Shown here: piece by piece, positions 29,920 to 35,934 of the stretch | Position numbering within the stretch: position 1 is the first letter of the stretch | How the letters are laid out: each line of letters opens with the position of its first letter | Assembly (NCBI RefSeq): GCF_014651895.1 | Contig: NZ_BMXT01000003.1 | Location: 62,001 to 126,000, forward strand | Reading direction: 5' to 3' | DNA length: 64,000 nt | DNA from: Rhodanobacter panaciterrae | GTDB taxonomy: Bacteria; Pseudomonadota; Gammaproteobacteria; Xanthomonadales; Rhodanobacteraceae | Notes under the pieces: generated by a model | The model's input: only the letters and a program-made list of their open reading frames with translations | Database searches by the model: none | What the model was told of the DNA's origin: nothing | Made by a program: the position numbers and the translations under genes

Positions 29920-29933
29920 CGCAAGATAATGCG
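29920..29933. promoter_or_regulatory. palindromic operator candidate, copy 1
   Basis: CGCAAGATAATGCG has 4-base arms CGCA/TGCG around AGATAA. The same 14 bases recur at 32643 and 34240, each time upstream of a TTGACA promoter (70, 70 and 72 bases before it). This fixed place, near -100 from the predicted transcription start, fits an activator site. Confidence 0.65.
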
Positions 29934-29989: not shown

Positions 29990-30018
29990 TTGACACCCCT
30001 TATTGCGGCCACTAGTTT
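29990..30018 (+). promoter_or_regulatory. promoter of HExxE gene 1
   Basis: A perfect -35 TTGACA (29990-29995), a 17-base spacer and the -10-like TAGTTT (30013-30018). The weak -10 suits an activator-dependent promoter. In the three copies the boxes are kept while the spacers differ freely. TTGACA lies exactly 288 bases before the ATG. Confidence 0.7.
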
Positions 30019-30024
30019 CCCCCG

Positions 30025-30277
30025 ATCCGTCGCGGGGAAACATCAAGGCGGATGGTTCCGTAACGGCGTCATGGATCGGGGGATCCATACGTCGTTCAAG
30101 CAATGACTCGACACCGTTCTCTAGGAAAGACAGGGGGAGCAACGGTTTACCGGGTATCGCGGAATCGCAAGGCACTGATGGAAATACGAGAGTCGTGCGA
30201 GGGCGCGACATGTCATTGCCACGGGGTCTGGGCGGCCGTGTTAGGCCCGCTCGTCCTCATTTCGGGGAAATCAATTC
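30025..30277 (+). promoter_or_regulatory. candidate structured 5' leader, copy 1
   Basis: About 253 transcribed bases precede the ATG, closely similar in all three paralogues. Predicted stems are ATCCG/CGGAT near 30029-30055, ATGGATC/GATCCAT near 30071-30088, ACCGTT/AACGGT (30113-30118 with 30141-30146) and GTCGTGC-GAGG-GCGCGAC (30192-30209). GGCC-N6-GGCC and ATTTC-GGG-GAAAT over the ribosome binding site follow. Copy 3 carries base changes that preserve pairing. It matches no riboswitch class that I recognise; a protein-bound leader (for example by RsmA/CsrA through GGA motifs) is another reading. Confidence 0.6.
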
Positions 30278-32365
30278 ATGAAGCACAAGTTTTTATTGAA
30301 TACTCTTGCCGCCTGCACCTTGCTCGGCTTCGCCACCGGGCCGGCGTTCGCTGCTGCTCAGGAGACCAACCCGTATGCGCCGGCCAACGGCCACGCGTAC
30401 CGTCACGGTGCGCTGCCGCACCGCGACGTGTGGCAGAAGATGCAACAGTGGAAGGCCCAGCACAATCCAACCGTGCAGACGGCAGCCACCGGCATCGAAA
30501 CGCTGAGCTACGGCGGCGCCCTCGACAGTGTGGGCGTGATGAGCGGCAAGGTGAAGGTCTACATCGTGTACTACGGCACCCAGTGGGGCACGCGCAGCAC
30601 CAATGCCGCAGGCGACTCCGTGTTCACCGGCGACGCCGACGGCGGCGCGGCGAAAGCCGAGGAAATGTTCAAGGGCATCGGCACCAACAACGAACTGTGG
30701 TCGGCTGACCTGACCCAGTGGTGCGACGGCCCCAACGTCACCAGCGGCGCGACCAGCTGCCCGTCGAACGCCAGCTTCGTGCCGTACCAGAGTGGCGGCA
30801 CCCTTGCCGGCGTCTGGTACGACAACTCCAAGGCCTCGCCAGCTACTGCCACGCAAGCCCAGCTCGCTGCCGAAGCGGTTTCCGCTGCGGCGCACTTCGG
30901 CAACACCGCGGCAGGTTCGAACCGTTACACCTACTACATCATCATGTCGCCGCACGGCACCAACCCGGACAGCTACCAGGGTTCGTACTGCGCATGGCAT
31001 GACTACACCACGTCGTCGTACGGCGATCTCGCGTACAGCAACCAGCCGTACAACATGGATTCCGGTGCGGGCTGCGGCGTGAACTTCGTCAACTCGGGCA
31101 GCGCCGGTACGCTGGACGGCTACACCATGACGCTCGGCCACGAGTGGCACGAAATGATGTCGGATACGTATCCGGCCGGCGGCTGGACCAACCACACCGG
31201 CAATGCGACCTACAACGGCCAGGAAAACTCTGACGAGTGCGCCTGGATCGCGGCGGGTTCGCCCGGCGGTGCGGCCAACATCACCTTTGCCACCGGCACG
31301 TTCACCGAGCAGGCCAGCTGGTCCAACGACACCAACGCGTGCTCGATTTCGCATCCGATCGTCGGTGGCGGCGGCGGTGGCGGCACACCGGTCGCGAACT
31401 TCAGTGACACGATCAGCGGCTTGACGGTGAACTTCACCGACAGCTCCACCGATACCGGCGGCACCATTTCGTCGCATTCGTGGACCTTCGGCGACGGCAG
31501 CACCTCGACGGCGACCAGCCCGAGCCACACCTATGCGGCAGCCGGCACCTACAGCGTGACCGAGACGGTGACCGACAGCGTCAGCGGTGCGACCAACTCC
31601 AAGACGTCCTCCGTGACCGTCGCGAGCACCGGTGGCACGCCGACCGCCAACTTCACCGACACCGTCAGCGGCCTGACTGCGACCTTTACCGATACTTCCA
31701 CTGATTCGGGCGGCACCATCGGCTCGCATGCGTGGACCTTCGGTGACGGCAGCACGTCGACCGCCACCAGCCCGAGCCACACCTATGCGGCAGCGGGTAC
31801 CTACAGCGTCACCGAGACGGTGACCGATAGTGTCGATGGCCAGACCAGCTCCAAGACGGCATCGGTGACGGTCACCAGCGGCGGTGGCTCGTCGCAGCTG
31901 TTCGGCAACACCGGCTTCGAAAGCGGCGCTGCCTCGCCGTGGACGATGAGCTCCGGCACGCTGTGCAGCAACAGCACCTGCTCGGGTGAAGTTGCCCATG
32001 GCGGCACCTGGTTCGCGTGGCTCGACGGTTACGGCACAACGCACACCGACACGCTGTCGCAGTCAGTGACCATTCCGGCTGGCAAGACCTCGGCCACCCT
32101 GTCGTACTACCTGCACATCGATACGGCGGAGACCGGATCGACGGCATATGACAAGCTGACCGTGCAGGTGCTGAACAGCGCGGGCACGGTGCTCGCGACA
32201 TTGGCGACGTACTCGAATGTCAACGCCGCGAGTGGTTACACCGTGCATACGGCCAACCTTGCCGCGTACATCGGGCAGACGGTGACGATCAAGTTCACCG
32301 GCAAGGAAGACAGCTCGCTGCAGACCTCGTTCGTGCTGGACGATGTCACGCTGACCGTGCAGTAA
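30278..32365 (+). CDS. secreted HExxE protein 1 with two PKD domains and a C-terminal beta domain
   Basis: A 695-residue exported protein with signal peptide '[25 protein letters not shown]'. The core (30-365) begins with '[13 protein letters not shown]' and '[13 protein letters not shown]', recalling the EXORDIUM/Phi_1 family. It carries HEWHE at 288-292 in '[18 protein letters not shown]', followed by '[10 protein letters not shown]'. This HExxE arrangement suggests a metal site but not a standard HExxH protease. After a Gly linker come two near-identical PKD domains (about 370-448 and 452-531) and a jelly-roll-like domain (537-695). The PKD and beta domains usually bind polysaccharide or protein surfaces. 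It is the first of three tandem paralogues and a likely type II substrate. Confidence 0.8.
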
Positions 32366-32374
32366 GTAAACCTT

Positions 32375-32403
32375 GACGGCAGCCGTCTCGCGCGGCTGCC
32401 GTC
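32375..32403 (+). terminator. hairpin directly after HExxE gene 1
   Basis: Arms GACGGCAGCC (32375-32384) and GGCTGCCGTC (32394-32403) start nine bases after the stop. No T-run follows; the true terminator is probably the stem at 32459. This stem may protect the mRNA 3' end. Confidence 0.45.
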
Positions 32404-32458
32404 AATGGCTCCAGGATGCGCAAGGTTGCGCCTCCGGTTTCGACCAGGAAGTCCACCG

Positions 32459-32488
32459 GCCCGATCGGCAACGATCGGGCTTTTTTTT
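32459..32488 (+). terminator. intrinsic terminator of HExxE gene 1
   Basis: Arms GCCCGATC and GATCGGGC with a six-base loop are followed by eight T residues (32481-32488). An almost identical terminator follows HExxE gene 3 at 36047. Confidence 0.92.
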
Positions 32489-32642
32489 GCGCGCGGGTGA
32501 CGGGGCCAGGCTGACACGGTATTTGAAAGGGGCGAGACATCTTTTTTGCCACCGGAATATCTGTGGATATTGACGAATTCAACCGATGGATTCGCGCCGT
32601 GCATTGACCTGTAGTGCGTTGACGAACGGATTTGATCAATAT

Positions 32643-32656
32643 CGCAAGATAATGCG
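32643..32656. promoter_or_regulatory. palindromic operator candidate, copy 2
   Basis: CGCAAGATAATGCG again; here the symmetry extends to ATCGCA/TGCGAT on the flanks. It lies exactly 70 bases before the TTGACA of gene 2, as in copy 1. Confidence 0.65.
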
Positions 32657-32712
32657 ATTTACACATGGTGCACATTATTTACTCGCCGTAACCGTCTAGG
32701 ATTAATTCCCAG

Positions 32713-32742
32713 TTGACACAAGCGAGCCGGAGCCATTAGTTT
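32713..32742 (+). promoter_or_regulatory. promoter of HExxE gene 2
   Basis: TTGACA at 32713-32718, an 18-base spacer unlike those of copies 1 and 3, and TAGTTT at 32737-32742. TTGACA is 288 bases before the ATG. Confidence 0.7.
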
Positions 32743-32748
32743 CGCCTG

Positions 32749-33000
32749 TCCGTCGCGGGGAGACATCAAGGCGGATGGTTCCGTAACGGCGGCATGGATC
32801 GGGGGATCCATGTGTCGTTCAAGCAATAACTCGACACCGTTCTCCAGGGAAGACAGGAGGATCAACGGTTAATCGGGTATCGCGGAATCGCAAGGCACTG
32901 ATTGAAATACGAGAGTCGTGCGAGGGCGCGACATGTCATTGCCACGAGGTCTGGGCGGCCGCGTTAGGTCCGCTCGTCCTCATTTCGGGGAAATCAATTC
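32749..33000 (+). promoter_or_regulatory. candidate structured 5' leader, copy 2
   Basis: Nearly identical to copy 1 over about 252 bases. Stems ACCGTT/AACGGT (32836-32841 with 32864-32869) and GTCGTGC-GAGG-GCGCGAC (32915-32932) are intact. A C-to-T change turns one GGGC/GCCC pair near 32960-32980 into a G-T pair, and GTCCG opposes CGGAT in the first stem with a G-T pair, so pairing is kept. Confidence 0.6.
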
Positions 33001-34074
33001 ATGAAGCACAAGTTTTTATTGAACACTCTTGCCGCCTGCGCATTGCTCGGCTTTGCCGCCGCGCCGGCGTTCTCTTCAACTTCGGAGACCAACCCGTATT
33101 CGCCGGCCAACGGTCACGCGTACCGTCACGGTGTGCTGCCGACCCGCGATGTGCTGAACCAGATGAACCACTGGACGGCCTCGCATTCGCTTGCCGCAGT
33201 CAATACAGCCACCGGTGCGAACACGCTGAGCTACGGCGGCGCCCTCGATAGTGTGGGCGTGATGGACAGCCACGTGAAGGTCTATATCGTGTACTACGGC
33301 ACCCAGTGGGGCACGCGCAGCACCAATGCCAAGGGCGACTCCGTGTTCACCGGCGACGCCGACGGCGCCGCGGCGGTGGCTGAAGAAATGTTCAAGGGTA
33401 TCGGCACCGGCAACGAGCTGTGGTCGGCGGACCTGACCCAGTGGTGCGACGGCCCCAACGTCGCCAAGGGTGCGACCAGCTGCCCGTCGAACGGCAGCTT
33501 TGTGCCGTACCAGACCGGCGGTACCCTTGCCGGCGTGTGGTACGACAACTCCAAGGCCTCGCCTCGCGCTGCCACGACCGCCCAGCTGGCGGCTGAAGCG
33601 GTCGCTGCCGCGAAGCACTTCGGCAACACCGCGGCAGGCTCGAACCGCTACACCTACTACATCATCGCGTCACCGCACGGCACCAACCCGGACAGGTATC
33701 AGCGTAGTTACTGCGCGTGGCATGACTACACCACTTCGAGCTACGGTGACATCGCGTACAGCAATCAGCCGTACAACATGGATTCCGGCGCGGGCTGCGG
33801 TGTGAACTTCGTCAACTCGGGCAGTGCCGGTACGCTGGACGGCTGGACCATGACGCTCGGTCACGAGTGGCACGAAATGATGTCGGATACGTATCCGGCC
33901 GGCGGCTGGACCGCGAGCAGTGGCCAGGAAAACTCCGACGAGTGCGCCTGGATCGCGGCGGGTTCACCCGGTGGTGCGGCCAACGTCACGATGGGCACCG
34001 GCACGTTCACCGAGCAGGCCAGCTGGTCCAACGACACCAACGCGTGCGCGATTTCGCACCCGATACTCCACTAA
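33001..34074 (+). CDS. secreted HExxE protein 2 (catalytic-type domain only)
   Basis: A 357-residue paralogue with signal peptide '[25 protein letters not shown]'. The whole core domain is present, including '[13 protein letters not shown]', HEWHE at 288-292 and '[10 protein letters not shown]', and it ends at 'SHPILH' exactly where the others enter the Gly linker ('SHPIVGGGG'). It therefore has no PKD domain. Whether this is the ancestral short form or a loss of the tail cannot be decided here. It has its own promoter, leader and terminator, so it is an independent unit rather than a broken gene. Function as for protein 1. Confidence 0.8.
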   Translation: MKHKFLLNTLAACALLGFAAAPAFSSTSETNPYSPANGHAYRHGVLPTRDVLNQMNHWTASHSLAAVNTATGANTLSYGGALDSVGVMDSHVKVYIVYYGTQWGTRSTNAKGDSVFTGDADGAAAVAEEMFKGIGTGNELWSADLTQWCDGPNVAKGATSCPSNGSFVPYQTGGTLAGVWYDNSKASPRAATTAQLAAEAVAAAKHFGNTAAGSNRYTYYIIASPHGTNPDRYQRSYCAWHDYTTSSYGDIAYSNQPYNMDSGAGCGVNFVNSGSAGTLDGWTMTLGHEWHEMMSDTYPAGGWTASSGQENSDECAWIAAGSPGGAANVTMGTGTFTEQASWSNDTNACAISHPILH

Positions 34075-34131
34075 GTAGCGAACTGGTGGCATGCGGTGCG
34101 CAGGGACGCGCATCGGTCATTTGAAGCATGG

Positions 34132-34159
34132 GGCCCGGCCGGCAACGGTCGGGCCTTTT
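34132..34159 (+). terminator. intrinsic terminator of HExxE gene 2
   Basis: Arms GGCCCGGCC (34132-34140) and GGTCGGGCC (34147-34155), with one G-T pair and a six-base loop, are followed by TTTT. It is 58 bases after the stop. Confidence 0.85.
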
Positions 34160-34239
34160 CGTGTCGGTCATTTGAAGACATGCCGCTCGACAATATGAAC
34201 AGCGCAAGATCGTGTCTGCATGATTAATCGAAAACGATG

Positions 34240-34253
34240 CGCAAGATAATGCG
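34240..34253. promoter_or_regulatory. palindromic operator candidate, copy 3
   Basis: The identical CGCAAGATAATGCG is present although the surrounding bases have diverged from copies 1 and 2. It lies 72 bases before the TTGACA of gene 3. Confidence 0.65.
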
Positions 34254-34311
34254 TAAATCTTGATGTGTGCGTTAGATTTTGCGCCTGTAATCACGCCTGA
34301 CCAATGCTGAG

Positions 34312-34341
34312 TTGACACTCGCGCATCATCGCGACTAGCTT
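34312..34341 (+). promoter_or_regulatory. promoter of HExxE gene 3
   Basis: TTGACA at 34312-34317, an 18-base spacer unrelated to the other copies, and TAGCTT at 34336-34341. TTGACA is again exactly 288 bases before the ATG. Confidence 0.7.
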
Positions 34342-34347
34342 CAAACG

Positions 34348-34599
34348 ATCCGTCTCGGCGAAACATCAGGCGGATGGTTCCGTAACGGCGTCATGAATCG
34401 GAAGGTCGCGCACCGTTCAAGCAACAACTCGACACCGTCCTCGAGGAACGACAGGGGGAGCGACGGCTCACCGGGGCCGCGGAACCGCAAGGCAATTGAT
34501 TGCAGTACGAGAGTCGCGCGAGCGCGCGGCATGTCTATTGCCACGAGGTCTGGGCGGCCGTGTTCGGCCCGCTCGTCCTCATTCCGGGGAAATCAATTC
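34348..34599 (+). promoter_or_regulatory. candidate structured 5' leader, copy 3
   Basis: The most diverged leader, and so the most telling. The stem 34434-34439 with 34462-34467 reads ACCGTC/GACGGC: the inner T-A pair of copies 1 and 2 has become C-G, while the outermost pair is lost. The second stem reads GTCGCGC-GAGC-GCGCGGC (34513-34530): a T-G pair became C-G and a T-A pair became T-G, so all seven pairs remain. The ATGGATC/GATCCAT stem of the other copies is not preserved. Overall length is unchanged. Confidence 0.6.
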
Positions 34600-35934
34600 A
34601 TGAAGTCCAATTTTCTGTTGAACACTCTTGCCGCCTGCAGCTTGCTCGGCTTTGCTGCCGCGCCGGTATTCGCCCAGGAGACCAACCCCTATTCGCCGGC
34701 CAACGGCCATTCGTATCGCCACGGTGTCGTGCCGCATCGCGACGTGTGGCAGAAGATGCAGCACTACGAAGCCCAACACCCGCTTGCCGCGGTCAACAAG
34801 GCCTCCGGTTCGAAGACGCTGCACTACGGCGGTGGCATCAGTGGCGTCGGCGTCATGTCCACCCACGTGCGGGTCTATCTGGTGATGTACGGCAGCCAGT
34901 GGGGCACCCAGGGCACCGACAGCAAGGGCAATGCCACGTTCACCGGTGATCCGAGCGGAGCGGCGCCGGTCACGCAGATGATGTTCAAGGGCATCGGCAC
35001 CGGCAACGAGCTGTGGTCGGCGGATCTGACCCAGTGGTGCGACGGCCCCAACGTCACTACTGGCGCGACCAGCTGCCCGTCGAACGGCAGCTTCGTGCCG
35101 TACCAGACCGGCGGCACGCTCGCCGGCGTGTGGTACGACAACTCCAAGGCCTCGCCTGCTGCTGCCACGCAAGCCCAGCTCGCTGCCGAGGCGGTCGCTG
35201 CCGCGGCGCACTTCGGCAACACGGCCGCCGGGTCGAACCGTGACACCTACTACGTCATCATGTCGCCACACGGCACCAATCCGGACAACTACCAGGGTGC
35301 GTACTGCGCGTGGCACGACTACACCACCTCGAGCTACGGCGACATCGCGTACAGCAACCAGCCGTACAACACGGATTCCGGCGCCGGTTGCGGCGTCAAC
35401 TTCGTCAACTCGGGCAGTGCCGGTACGCTGGACGGCTACACCATGACGCTCGGTCACGAGTGGCATGAAATGATGTCGGATACGTATCCGGCTGGTGGCT
35501 GGACTGCAAGCAACGGTCAGGAAAACTCCGACGAGTGCGCCTGGATCGCGGCAGGATCACCCGGTGGCGCAGCCAACATCACGATGGGCAACGGCACCTA
35601 TACCGAGCAGGCCAGCTGGTCCAATGACACCAATTCGTGTGCGATCTCGCACCCGATTGTTGGCGGTGGTGGCGGCACCAGTGGTACTCCGGTGGCGAAC
35701 TTCACCTTCACCACGAGCAAACTTGTCGCAAAATTCACCGACACCTCCACGGAGACGGGCGGCACGATCAGCGGGCACTCGTGGAGCTTTGGCGACGGCA
35801 GCAGCTCCACCGCGACCAGCCCGAGCCACACCTACGCGGCGGCCGGCACCTACAGCGTGACCGAGACGGTGACCGACAGCGTCAACGGCACCTCGAACGC
35901 CAAGACAGCATCGGTAACCGTAAAGAGGCATTGA
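34600..35934 (+). CDS. secreted HExxE protein 3 with one PKD domain
   Basis: A 444-residue paralogue with signal peptide '[25 protein letters not shown]'. The core domain carries HEWHE at 286-290 and '[10 protein letters not shown]', then a Gly linker and a single PKD domain (about 364-443) that ends the protein. The ATG at 34600 is chosen because it follows GGGGA and the conserved leader; the frame is open back to 34393, but only through the leader. The N-terminal third differs most from paralogues 1 and 2 ('GGGISGVGVMSTHVRVYLVMYGSQWG'). Function as for protein 1. Confidence 0.8.
   Translation: MKSNFLLNTLAACSLLGFAAAPVFAQETNPYSPANGHSYRHGVVPHRDVWQKMQHYEAQHPLAAVNKASGSKTLHYGGGISGVGVMSTHVRVYLVMYGSQWGTQGTDSKGNATFTGDPSGAAPVTQMMFKGIGTGNELWSADLTQWCDGPNVTTGATSCPSNGSFVPYQTGGTLAGVWYDNSKASPAAATQAQLAAEAVAAAAHFGNTAAGSNRDTYYVIMSPHGTNPDNYQGAYCAWHDYTTSSYGDIAYSNQPYNTDSGAGCGVNFVNSGSAGTLDGYTMTLGHEWHEMMSDTYPAGGWTASNGQENSDECAWIAAGSPGGAANITMGNGTYTEQASWSNDTNSCAISHPIVGGGGGTSGTPVANFTFTTSKLVAKFTDTSTETGGTISGHSWSFGDGSSSTATSPSHTYAAAGTYSVTETVTDSVNGTSNAKTASVTVKRH

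Follow-up and report, generated by a model that had tools for sequence, protein, structure and literature searches.

A structured leader RNA, very likely an undescribed cis-regulatory family, upstream of genes for secreted protease-like proteins in Rhodanobacteraceae

According to the available parts of the reports cited here, CsrA/RsmA recognises A(N)GGA in single-stranded regions, and an A(N)GGA that overlaps the Shine–Dalgarno sequence (SD) or lies close to it is a criterion for its targets (PMC4066749), the strong sites being ANGGAX hexaloops or AGGGA and AAGGA pentaloops carried on a stem (PMC4005645). CsrA of Xanthomonas citri acts as a repressor of the virB operon via a 5' untranslated region with seven GGA sites, including the ribosome-binding site (RBS) (PMC7286519), and stabilises the hrpG mRNA (PMC3937308). 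The Xanthomonas small RNA (sRNA) sX13 possesses three loops rich in C, and target mRNAs need G-rich motifs to be repressed by it; the same source, in its available part, reports sX13 only from Xanthomonadaceae (PMC3771888). Here, we describe a leader of approximately 255 bases that occurs three times within 64 000 nucleotides of Rhodanobacter panaciterrae (contig NZ_BMXT01000003.1, positions 62,001 to 126,000, forward strand; ‘the window’ hereafter), each time in front of a gene for a protein with an HExxE motif. This leader is very likely an undescribed family of structured cis-regulatory RNA, and it probably sets how much is made of three unrelated kinds of secreted protease.

An earlier reading of the window, based on the letters and their open reading frames (the sequence-only reading), had pointed to three leaders alike over their full length, and the comparison bears this out: the three copies (each approx. 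262 bases) are pairwise 92.8, 84.6 and 82.0% identical, and they are exactly the matches in the window, all on the + strand, of the covariance model R1 described below. The constant distance between −10 box and ATG noted at the time was likewise retrieved (265, 264 and 264 bases, counted from the start of the −10 hexamer), as was the HExxE motif, which reads HEWHE in all three proteins. The DNA upstream of the copies is only 40–51% alike, and the promoter spacers 39–50%. As the similarity starts at the −10 box, the conserved block begins where a transcript would begin.

The same reading had seen pair-preserving changes between the copies, and here the window alone offers less than was claimed. 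In the stem ACCGTT/AACGGT, the inner T–A pair is indeed replaced by C–G in copy 3 (ACCGTC/GACGGC), but the outermost A–U pair is lost there (A.C). In GTCGTGC/GCGCGAC, pairing is kept in copy 3, but two stem bases differ rather than three, the third difference lying in the loop, and both changes are one-sided (U.G to C–G, and U–A to U.G). Across these two stems, a single pair thus shows a two-sided change among the window copies. The loss of ATGGATC/GATCCAT in copy 3 was correctly recognised.

The leader also occurs beyond the window. By blastn, 17 of 197 family genomes (three of 26 genera) gave partial matches. Model R1, built from alignment A2 (18 leaders, L006 and L019 having been dropped beforehand), matched in 102 of 233 family genomes, distributed among 14 of the 26 genera. 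Across the order, R1 matched in 59 of 398 genomes, 58 of which belong to the own family, and a model of the 3' domain (R2) in 75 of 398, the own family contributing 74; across the class, one genome of 185 was matched, namely the own one. These order and class searches ran with stricter filters, with which weak matches can be missed. Rhodanobacteraceae are probably the family that bears the leader, a stretch of 454 amino acids from the PolA of the own genome being 94% identical to Rhodanobacter spathiphylli B39. The two candidates outside the family, in G441 (30 bases, E = 0.007) and in G467 (L218, E = 0.006, beside which no open frame of at least 90 amino acids begins), are marginal and look like chance, as does one match inside it, L227 (E = 0.0055), which has no protease match. 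A fourth copy exists in the own genome (G000:C4, locus L066), before an M4 protease gene. The loci considered below are those among the R1 matches listed, to which 36 places were added by hand from the R2 list; at least four further R2-list places (on G080, G144, G045 and G081) were left out.

The leader consists of a 5' domain, in which hairpin P1 is followed by a long-range helix P0 enclosing P2 and P3, and of a 3' domain (P4 and P5A) that ends at the RBS (table 1). Covariation was detected in P1, P0, P2, P3a and P4, the changes in P0 being C–G/U–A and A–U/G–C. Cells in which both bases of a pair are changed numbered 56 on A2 against 21.6 in shuffles. Alignment A3 (101 sequences fitted to R1) gave 576 against 165.5, and the structure beat every slid version of itself. 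A3 derives from 114 leaders at 88% redundancy, with L064 and L065 forced in, reduced to 100 sources, and omits by hand L064, L065, L112, L123, L141, L152, L163, L172, L173 and L177–L181. On the structure-blind alignment A4 (52 sequences, 17 odd loci including L182 having been set aside by hand before a 74% filter), the figures were 236 and 91.2. When all 28 441 column pairs of a structure-blind MAFFT alignment were scanned, six R1 pairs stood among the top seven; the remaining one, 30222–30240 (U–A 87, C–G 12), belongs to P5A and lies outside R1. Finally, G.U and A.C cells occurred as 447 : 111 on A3 (expected 648 : 330; tally made on the R1 structure including a last hairpin since rejected) and as 208 : 79 on A4 (expected 312 : 184). 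The better retention of G.U than of A.C favours an RNA read from the sense strand.

Several results call for caution about the fold. Under a home-made tree-based null patterned on R-scape, which is harsher than the shuffles, no pair reached E < 0.05 among all pairs, the best values being 0.10 on A3 and 0.32 on the structure-blind alignment; six of the 42 model pairs have a one-set E below 35, a value that rescales by hand to less than 0.05 over a set of 42 pairs. Pair types were no more numerous than in shuffles (the observed value was reached by 255 of 500 shuffles on A2 and by 74 of 500 for P5A), and the blind alignments pair P2 and P3a less well (78% and 61% of cells). The suggestion of an undescribed regulatory element with pair-preserving stems nevertheless passes the kind of covariation test which the sequence-only reading had called for: leaders from 14 genera preserve the stems through the double changes counted on A3 and A4, although no single pair reaches E < 0.05 among all pairs under the tree null.

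In line with the earlier remark that no known riboswitch family fits, none of the 4227 models of Rfam 15 matched at gathering score, either in the window or in 12 leader-bearing loci; three weak hits were to eukaryotic or viral families, far below cut-off, and were discarded. In the open-access full text covered, nothing was retrieved on noncoding RNA in Rhodanobacteraceae or on sX13 together with Rhodanobacter, and no such leader figures in the titles listed by related searches.

At the loci examined, the genes behind the leader are of one functional class but of unrelated families. An open frame of at least 170 amino acids starts between 10 bases before and 23 bases after the end of the match at 155 of 159 loci, and at 137 of them 2–8 bases after it; among the 36 places added from the R2 list, 34 lie before M4, S53 or HExxE-type genes. 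Ten representatives submitted to Pfam comprised one M4 protein of thermolysin type, six S53 pro-kumamolisins, two HExxE proteins with PKD domains (one also with PPC) and one HExxE protein without match, and one S53 member matched sedolisin structures (E about 4e-73). A crude motif rule divided the 155 loci into 44 M4-like, 33 HExxE-type and 78 others (mainly S53), and BLAST clusters of the same genes into 79 of metallo-type and 75 plus 1 of S53. The HExxE class is assigned to proteases on its motif only. These three protease-like families are unrelated; accordingly, shared descent of the genes cannot explain the common leader, which has either moved or been retained in its own right. The leader is not obligatory for such proteases, as none of the four S53 genes and one of the two M4 genes of the own genome adjoin one.

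The four exceptions are of two sorts. L182 does have an S53 gene, and this locus was left out of the counts. L051, L053 and L071 exhibit an intact leader with no long open frame at its end and an HExxE-type coding stretch approximately 290–480 bases further on; they are possibly decayed copies retaining the leader. In the HExxE family itself (33001–34074 and relatives, alignment A6), HEWHE or HEYAE is followed by a stretch resembling GQEN..DECAW. The catalytic part had no Pfam, NCBIfam or PDB match in the members scanned, and these proteins are probably an unnamed family of metallopeptidases.

Table 1. Features of the three leader loci, helices of the leader (coordinates for copy 1) and the sX13-like sRNA. 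Positions are those of the window unless a contig is given; signal peptides were called by eye throughout.
Feature	Position	Strand	Remarks
14-mer CGCAAGATAATGCG	29920-29933, 32643-32656, 34240-34253	+	identical, partly palindromic; upstream of promoters 1-3
Promoter 1	TTGACA 29990-29995, TAGTTT 30013-30018	+	sigma-70-like
Leader RNA copy 1	30015..30274	+	R1, 233.5 bits
P1	30025-30031/30047-30053	+	GGGGA in loop; 96-98% of cells paired
P0	GGUUCC 30054-30059/GGAAUC 30161-30166	+	long-range helix closing P2-P3 domain; 94-100% of cells paired
P2	30063-30069/30089-30095; upper 30071-30077/30082-30088	+	variable hairpin; upper part lost in copy 3
P3a	30113-30118/30141-30146	+	apical UAGGAA (GGA 30124-30126); 3' bulge AGGGGGA 30132-30138
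P4	30192..30209	+	hairpin GUCGUGC/GCGCGAC; 92-94% of cells paired
P5A	30221-30223/30239-30241 and 30225-30228/30234-30237	+	hairpin; G.G mismatch 30224/30238; absent from the sequence-only reading
SD-like GGGGA	30264..30268	+	before ATG 30278
Gene 1	30278..32365	+	HExxE protein with PKD domains; signal-peptide-like start
Promoter 2	TTGACA 32713-32718, TAGTTT 32737-32742	+	sigma-70-like
Leader RNA copy 2	32739..32997	+	R1, 217 bits
Gene 2	33001..34074	+	HExxE protein, 357 amino acids; signal-peptide-like start
Promoter 3	TTGACA 34312-34317, TAGCTT 34336-34341	+	sigma-70-like
Leader RNA copy 3	34338..34596	+	R1, 211 bits
Gene 3	34600..35934	+	HExxE protein with PKD domain; signal-peptide-like start
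sX13-like sRNA (L236)	G000:C5:49585-49698	-	full-length but sub-threshold Rfam match (RF02232), 36.6 bits

A TTGAC box followed by TA.... (17–19 bases apart) lies 24–36 bases 5' of the first model base at 102 of 158 loci (94 of them at 25–26), which makes an RNA start downstream of the conserved block unlikely, and GGA or GGGG occurs within the last 25 leader bases at 147 of 158. In the window, the 14-mer CGCAAGATAATGCG stands 56–58 bases 5' of each −35 box, within DNA that is otherwise 40–51% alike; at up to two mismatches, it has exactly three matches there (chance mean 0.59). It is probably the operator of a common transcription factor, outside the RNA.

The 3' end of the leader required revision. 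According to the sequence-only reading, the last hairpin (GCGGCC/GGCCCGC) covers the RBS; this hairpin is paired in 76.6% of cells, and P5A overlaps and replaces it, while a conserved helix over the RBS, sought across the leaders, did not emerge beyond chance, so that this claim had to be abandoned. P5A takes the form AUG-G-GGUC/GGCC-G-CAU, with a mismatch that is mostly G.G (54 of 101). It shows 57 double-change cells against 8.8 in shuffles, five of its eight positions are paired in more than 90% of sequences (85.2% of all cells), and on A4, with the mismatch position excluded, 93.1% of cells are paired. Together with its flanking motifs X and Z, it reaches a mean column identity of 57% (A5, 49 sequences, L172, L176 and L177 having been dropped beforehand) versus 46% for whole leaders (A4). 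In L206 and L230, P5A seems to persist in a changed sequence. Two divergent leaders, L148 and L180, are apparently devoid of it; in L148, UAGACAG and CUGUCUA can pair around P4, and the layout of L180 is similar.

What could such a leader do? It is probably a post-transcriptional control point through which extracellular proteolysis is co-regulated, its conserved G-rich sites probably being read in trans. The reader would most likely be CsrA/RsmA, an identification which we advance tentatively. In this scheme, the scaffold would display single-stranded G-rich sites, namely the GGGGA of the P1 loop, the apical A(N)GGA of P3, the AGGGGGA bulge of P3 and the SD; CsrA/RsmA would bind the displayed GGA sites, bridging towards the SD, and would hold translation down until it is titrated. 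The host does possess csrA (90.8 bits versus a cut-off of 27), and the virB case of X. citri provides a precedent in the same order. The placement of GGA is consistent with this proposal: it is present in 90 of 101 P1 loops (39 in shuffles), whose G-run comprises 2–5 Gs always followed by A, and in 95 of 101 P3 apical parts, and it is scarce both in the joint between P2 and P3 (4 of 98, versus 19.3 in shuffles) and in the loop of P4 (1 of 86, versus 4.7). Among the 95 P3 apical sites, 71 read A(N)GGA, with three or more stem pairs beneath it in 63 (66%), versus 22% with shuffled flanks. When plain GGA is counted, at least three sites are found in 111 of 112 leaders and at least two pairs of sites less than 60 bases apart in 103 of 112, but shuffles already reach 105.5 and 89.6.

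Other observations argue against CsrA as the reader. The excess of GGA per leader is slight (6.48 versus 5.47 shuffled), and GGA also exceeds shuffles in the joint between P3 and P0 (33 of 101 versus 20.8). A high-affinity loop in the strict sense, carried by three or more stem pairs, exists in 14 of 101 leaders, and all published characteristics of a CsrA target come together in only 44 of 112 (shuffled 19.6). An SD-proximal A(N)GGA occurs in 45 of 112 (shuffled 22.8); it is present in the fourth copy, L066, and absent from window copies 1–3, for which reason we liken the leader to CsrA-controlled ones without classing it among them. Leaders of the HExxE class are weaker in GGA (P1 loop 15 of 21, P3 bulge 8 of 21). 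The SD falls in a hairpin loop in 120 of 170 cases (71%), close to the 64% expected. Moreover, CsrA does not account for the near-invariance of P5A and its flanks in the 3' domain, and the G-runs of the P1 loop and the bulge suit a C-rich sRNA equally. As a separate observation, L207 and L216 carry the SD inside the loop of a small perfect hairpin (GGUC-AGGA-GACC and UGUC-AAGGA-GACA) reminiscent of CsrA sites, a type of hairpin that is not enriched over all loci.

An sX13-like sRNA is the main competitor for the same sites, though we consider it rather unlikely to be the principal regulator. Kissing contacts of its three C-rich loops with the P1 loop and with the P3 bulge would simultaneously alter the translation or stability of all the protease mRNAs concerned. 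The own genome contains a full-length match directly behind polA, which is the sX13 locus of Xanthomonas, and matches behind polA also exist in two Rhodanobacter records, L238 and L239 (43.5 and 42 bits); yet the match in the own genome (36.6 bits) is under the Rfam gathering score of 50, and matches below cut-off are also present in three of 14 control genomes. AGGGGGA, the bulge sequence of copies 1 and 3 (AGGAGGA in copy 2), is perfectly complementary to loop 3, UCCCCCU; nine pairs, one of them G.U, are possible between loop 1 and the P1 loop of the fourth copy. At least four consecutive Gs in the 3' part of P3, found in 86 of 101 leaders, are beyond what CsrA needs. The best partner lies inside P3 for loops 2 and 3 in 71 and 74 of 101 leaders (28 and 23 with shuffled loops); for loop 1, it falls in the P1 loop in 39 of 101 (14 with shuffled loops) and in P3 in 38 (19), in a test that set the loops of one genome against leaders of many. 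G-runs of two or fewer are nonetheless found in 42 of 101 P3 apical parts, and known sX13 targets have their motif near the start codon in the available part of the report (PMC3771888), whereas P1 and P3 lie approximately 140–245 bases upstream; GGGG downstream of P5 occurs in 46 of 101 leaders. CsrA and the sX13-like sRNA could also both act on one leader.

The conserved 3' domain invites another interpretation, that of a riboswitch or a dedicated protein-binding aptamer in which this domain senses and the nearby RBS is switched. Such an RNA would be in keeping with the covarying multi-helix architecture, the conserved unpaired or P5A bases and the single functional class of genes at the loci examined, and CUAGACA can indeed pair with UGUCUAG beside the SD in many leaders of the M4 class. 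This pairing is nevertheless confined to part of the leaders, mostly of that class, and no general helix between X and Z, X and SD or Z and SD, nor any other alternative pairing of these regions, was conserved beyond chance, the tests being directed at such pairing and not at terminator switches. To our knowledge, metabolite feedback does not usually target secreted proteases, and we regard this interpretation as rather unlikely. A broader proposal, which seems doubtful to us, is a new class of sensing RNA in command of an exoprotease regulon: its near-invariant 3' domain, made up of X, Z and P5A with a mostly constant G.G mismatch, would bind a ligand or protein of its own, and the 5' domain would dock CsrA and an sX13-like sRNA at separate sites. 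If true, protein, small RNA and a third signal would converge on one scaffold, and leaders present in abundance could themselves titrate CsrA or sX13. A constitutive stabiliser of mRNA or enhancer of translation for abundant exported enzymes, devoid of any switch, would suit the strong fold of copy 1 (energy z = −2.78 versus chance) and the exported-looking proteins encoded behind the leader at the loci examined. This is improbable, as sequence-specific conserved loops and P5A exceed the needs of a stabilising hairpin, and in the own genome five such genes (four S53, one M4) do without an adjoining leader. Lastly, the tandem and similar window copies could reflect recent gene duplication, or a block acting as DNA. 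We give this hardly any credence: the sequence-only reading had already held duplication to be insufficient, and matches in 14 genera before unrelated genes, with covarying double changes, agree with it, as do the preference for G.U over A.C and the onset of similarity at the promoter −10.

Taken as a control point probably read by a trans-acting factor, the leader would place exported proteases of M4, S53 and HExxE type under a single post-transcriptional handle on extracellular proteolysis in soil bacteria, a costly trait that yields shared goods. It would also add a new RNA family for annotation, and offers a test of whether a conserved scaffold, instead of loosely structured leaders, can carry CsrA sites, and of the role of sX13 outside Xanthomonas.

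Compared with described systems, the leader resembles the CsrA-controlled leaders of X. citri virB7 and hrpG and of Escherichia coli glgC, as far as the available accounts of these go, in its several GGA sites, some of them in loops, in its ending at the SD and in the presence of a genomic csrA. It differs from them by a multi-helix scaffold conserved across genera and genes, and by a 3' domain unrelated to GGA. Similarly, it shares with the partly available description of the sX13 regulon conserved runs of 4–5 Gs complementary to the C-rich loops of a polA-linked sRNA apparently present here, whereas the G motifs of Xanthomonas are described there as short, without conserved position or flanks, and near the start codon. 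With the cis-regulatory leaders of Rfam, riboswitches included, it has in common several covarying helices and a place in front of functionally alike genes; it differs in that it has no Rfam match and that no conserved expression platform with exclusive pairing at the SD emerged.

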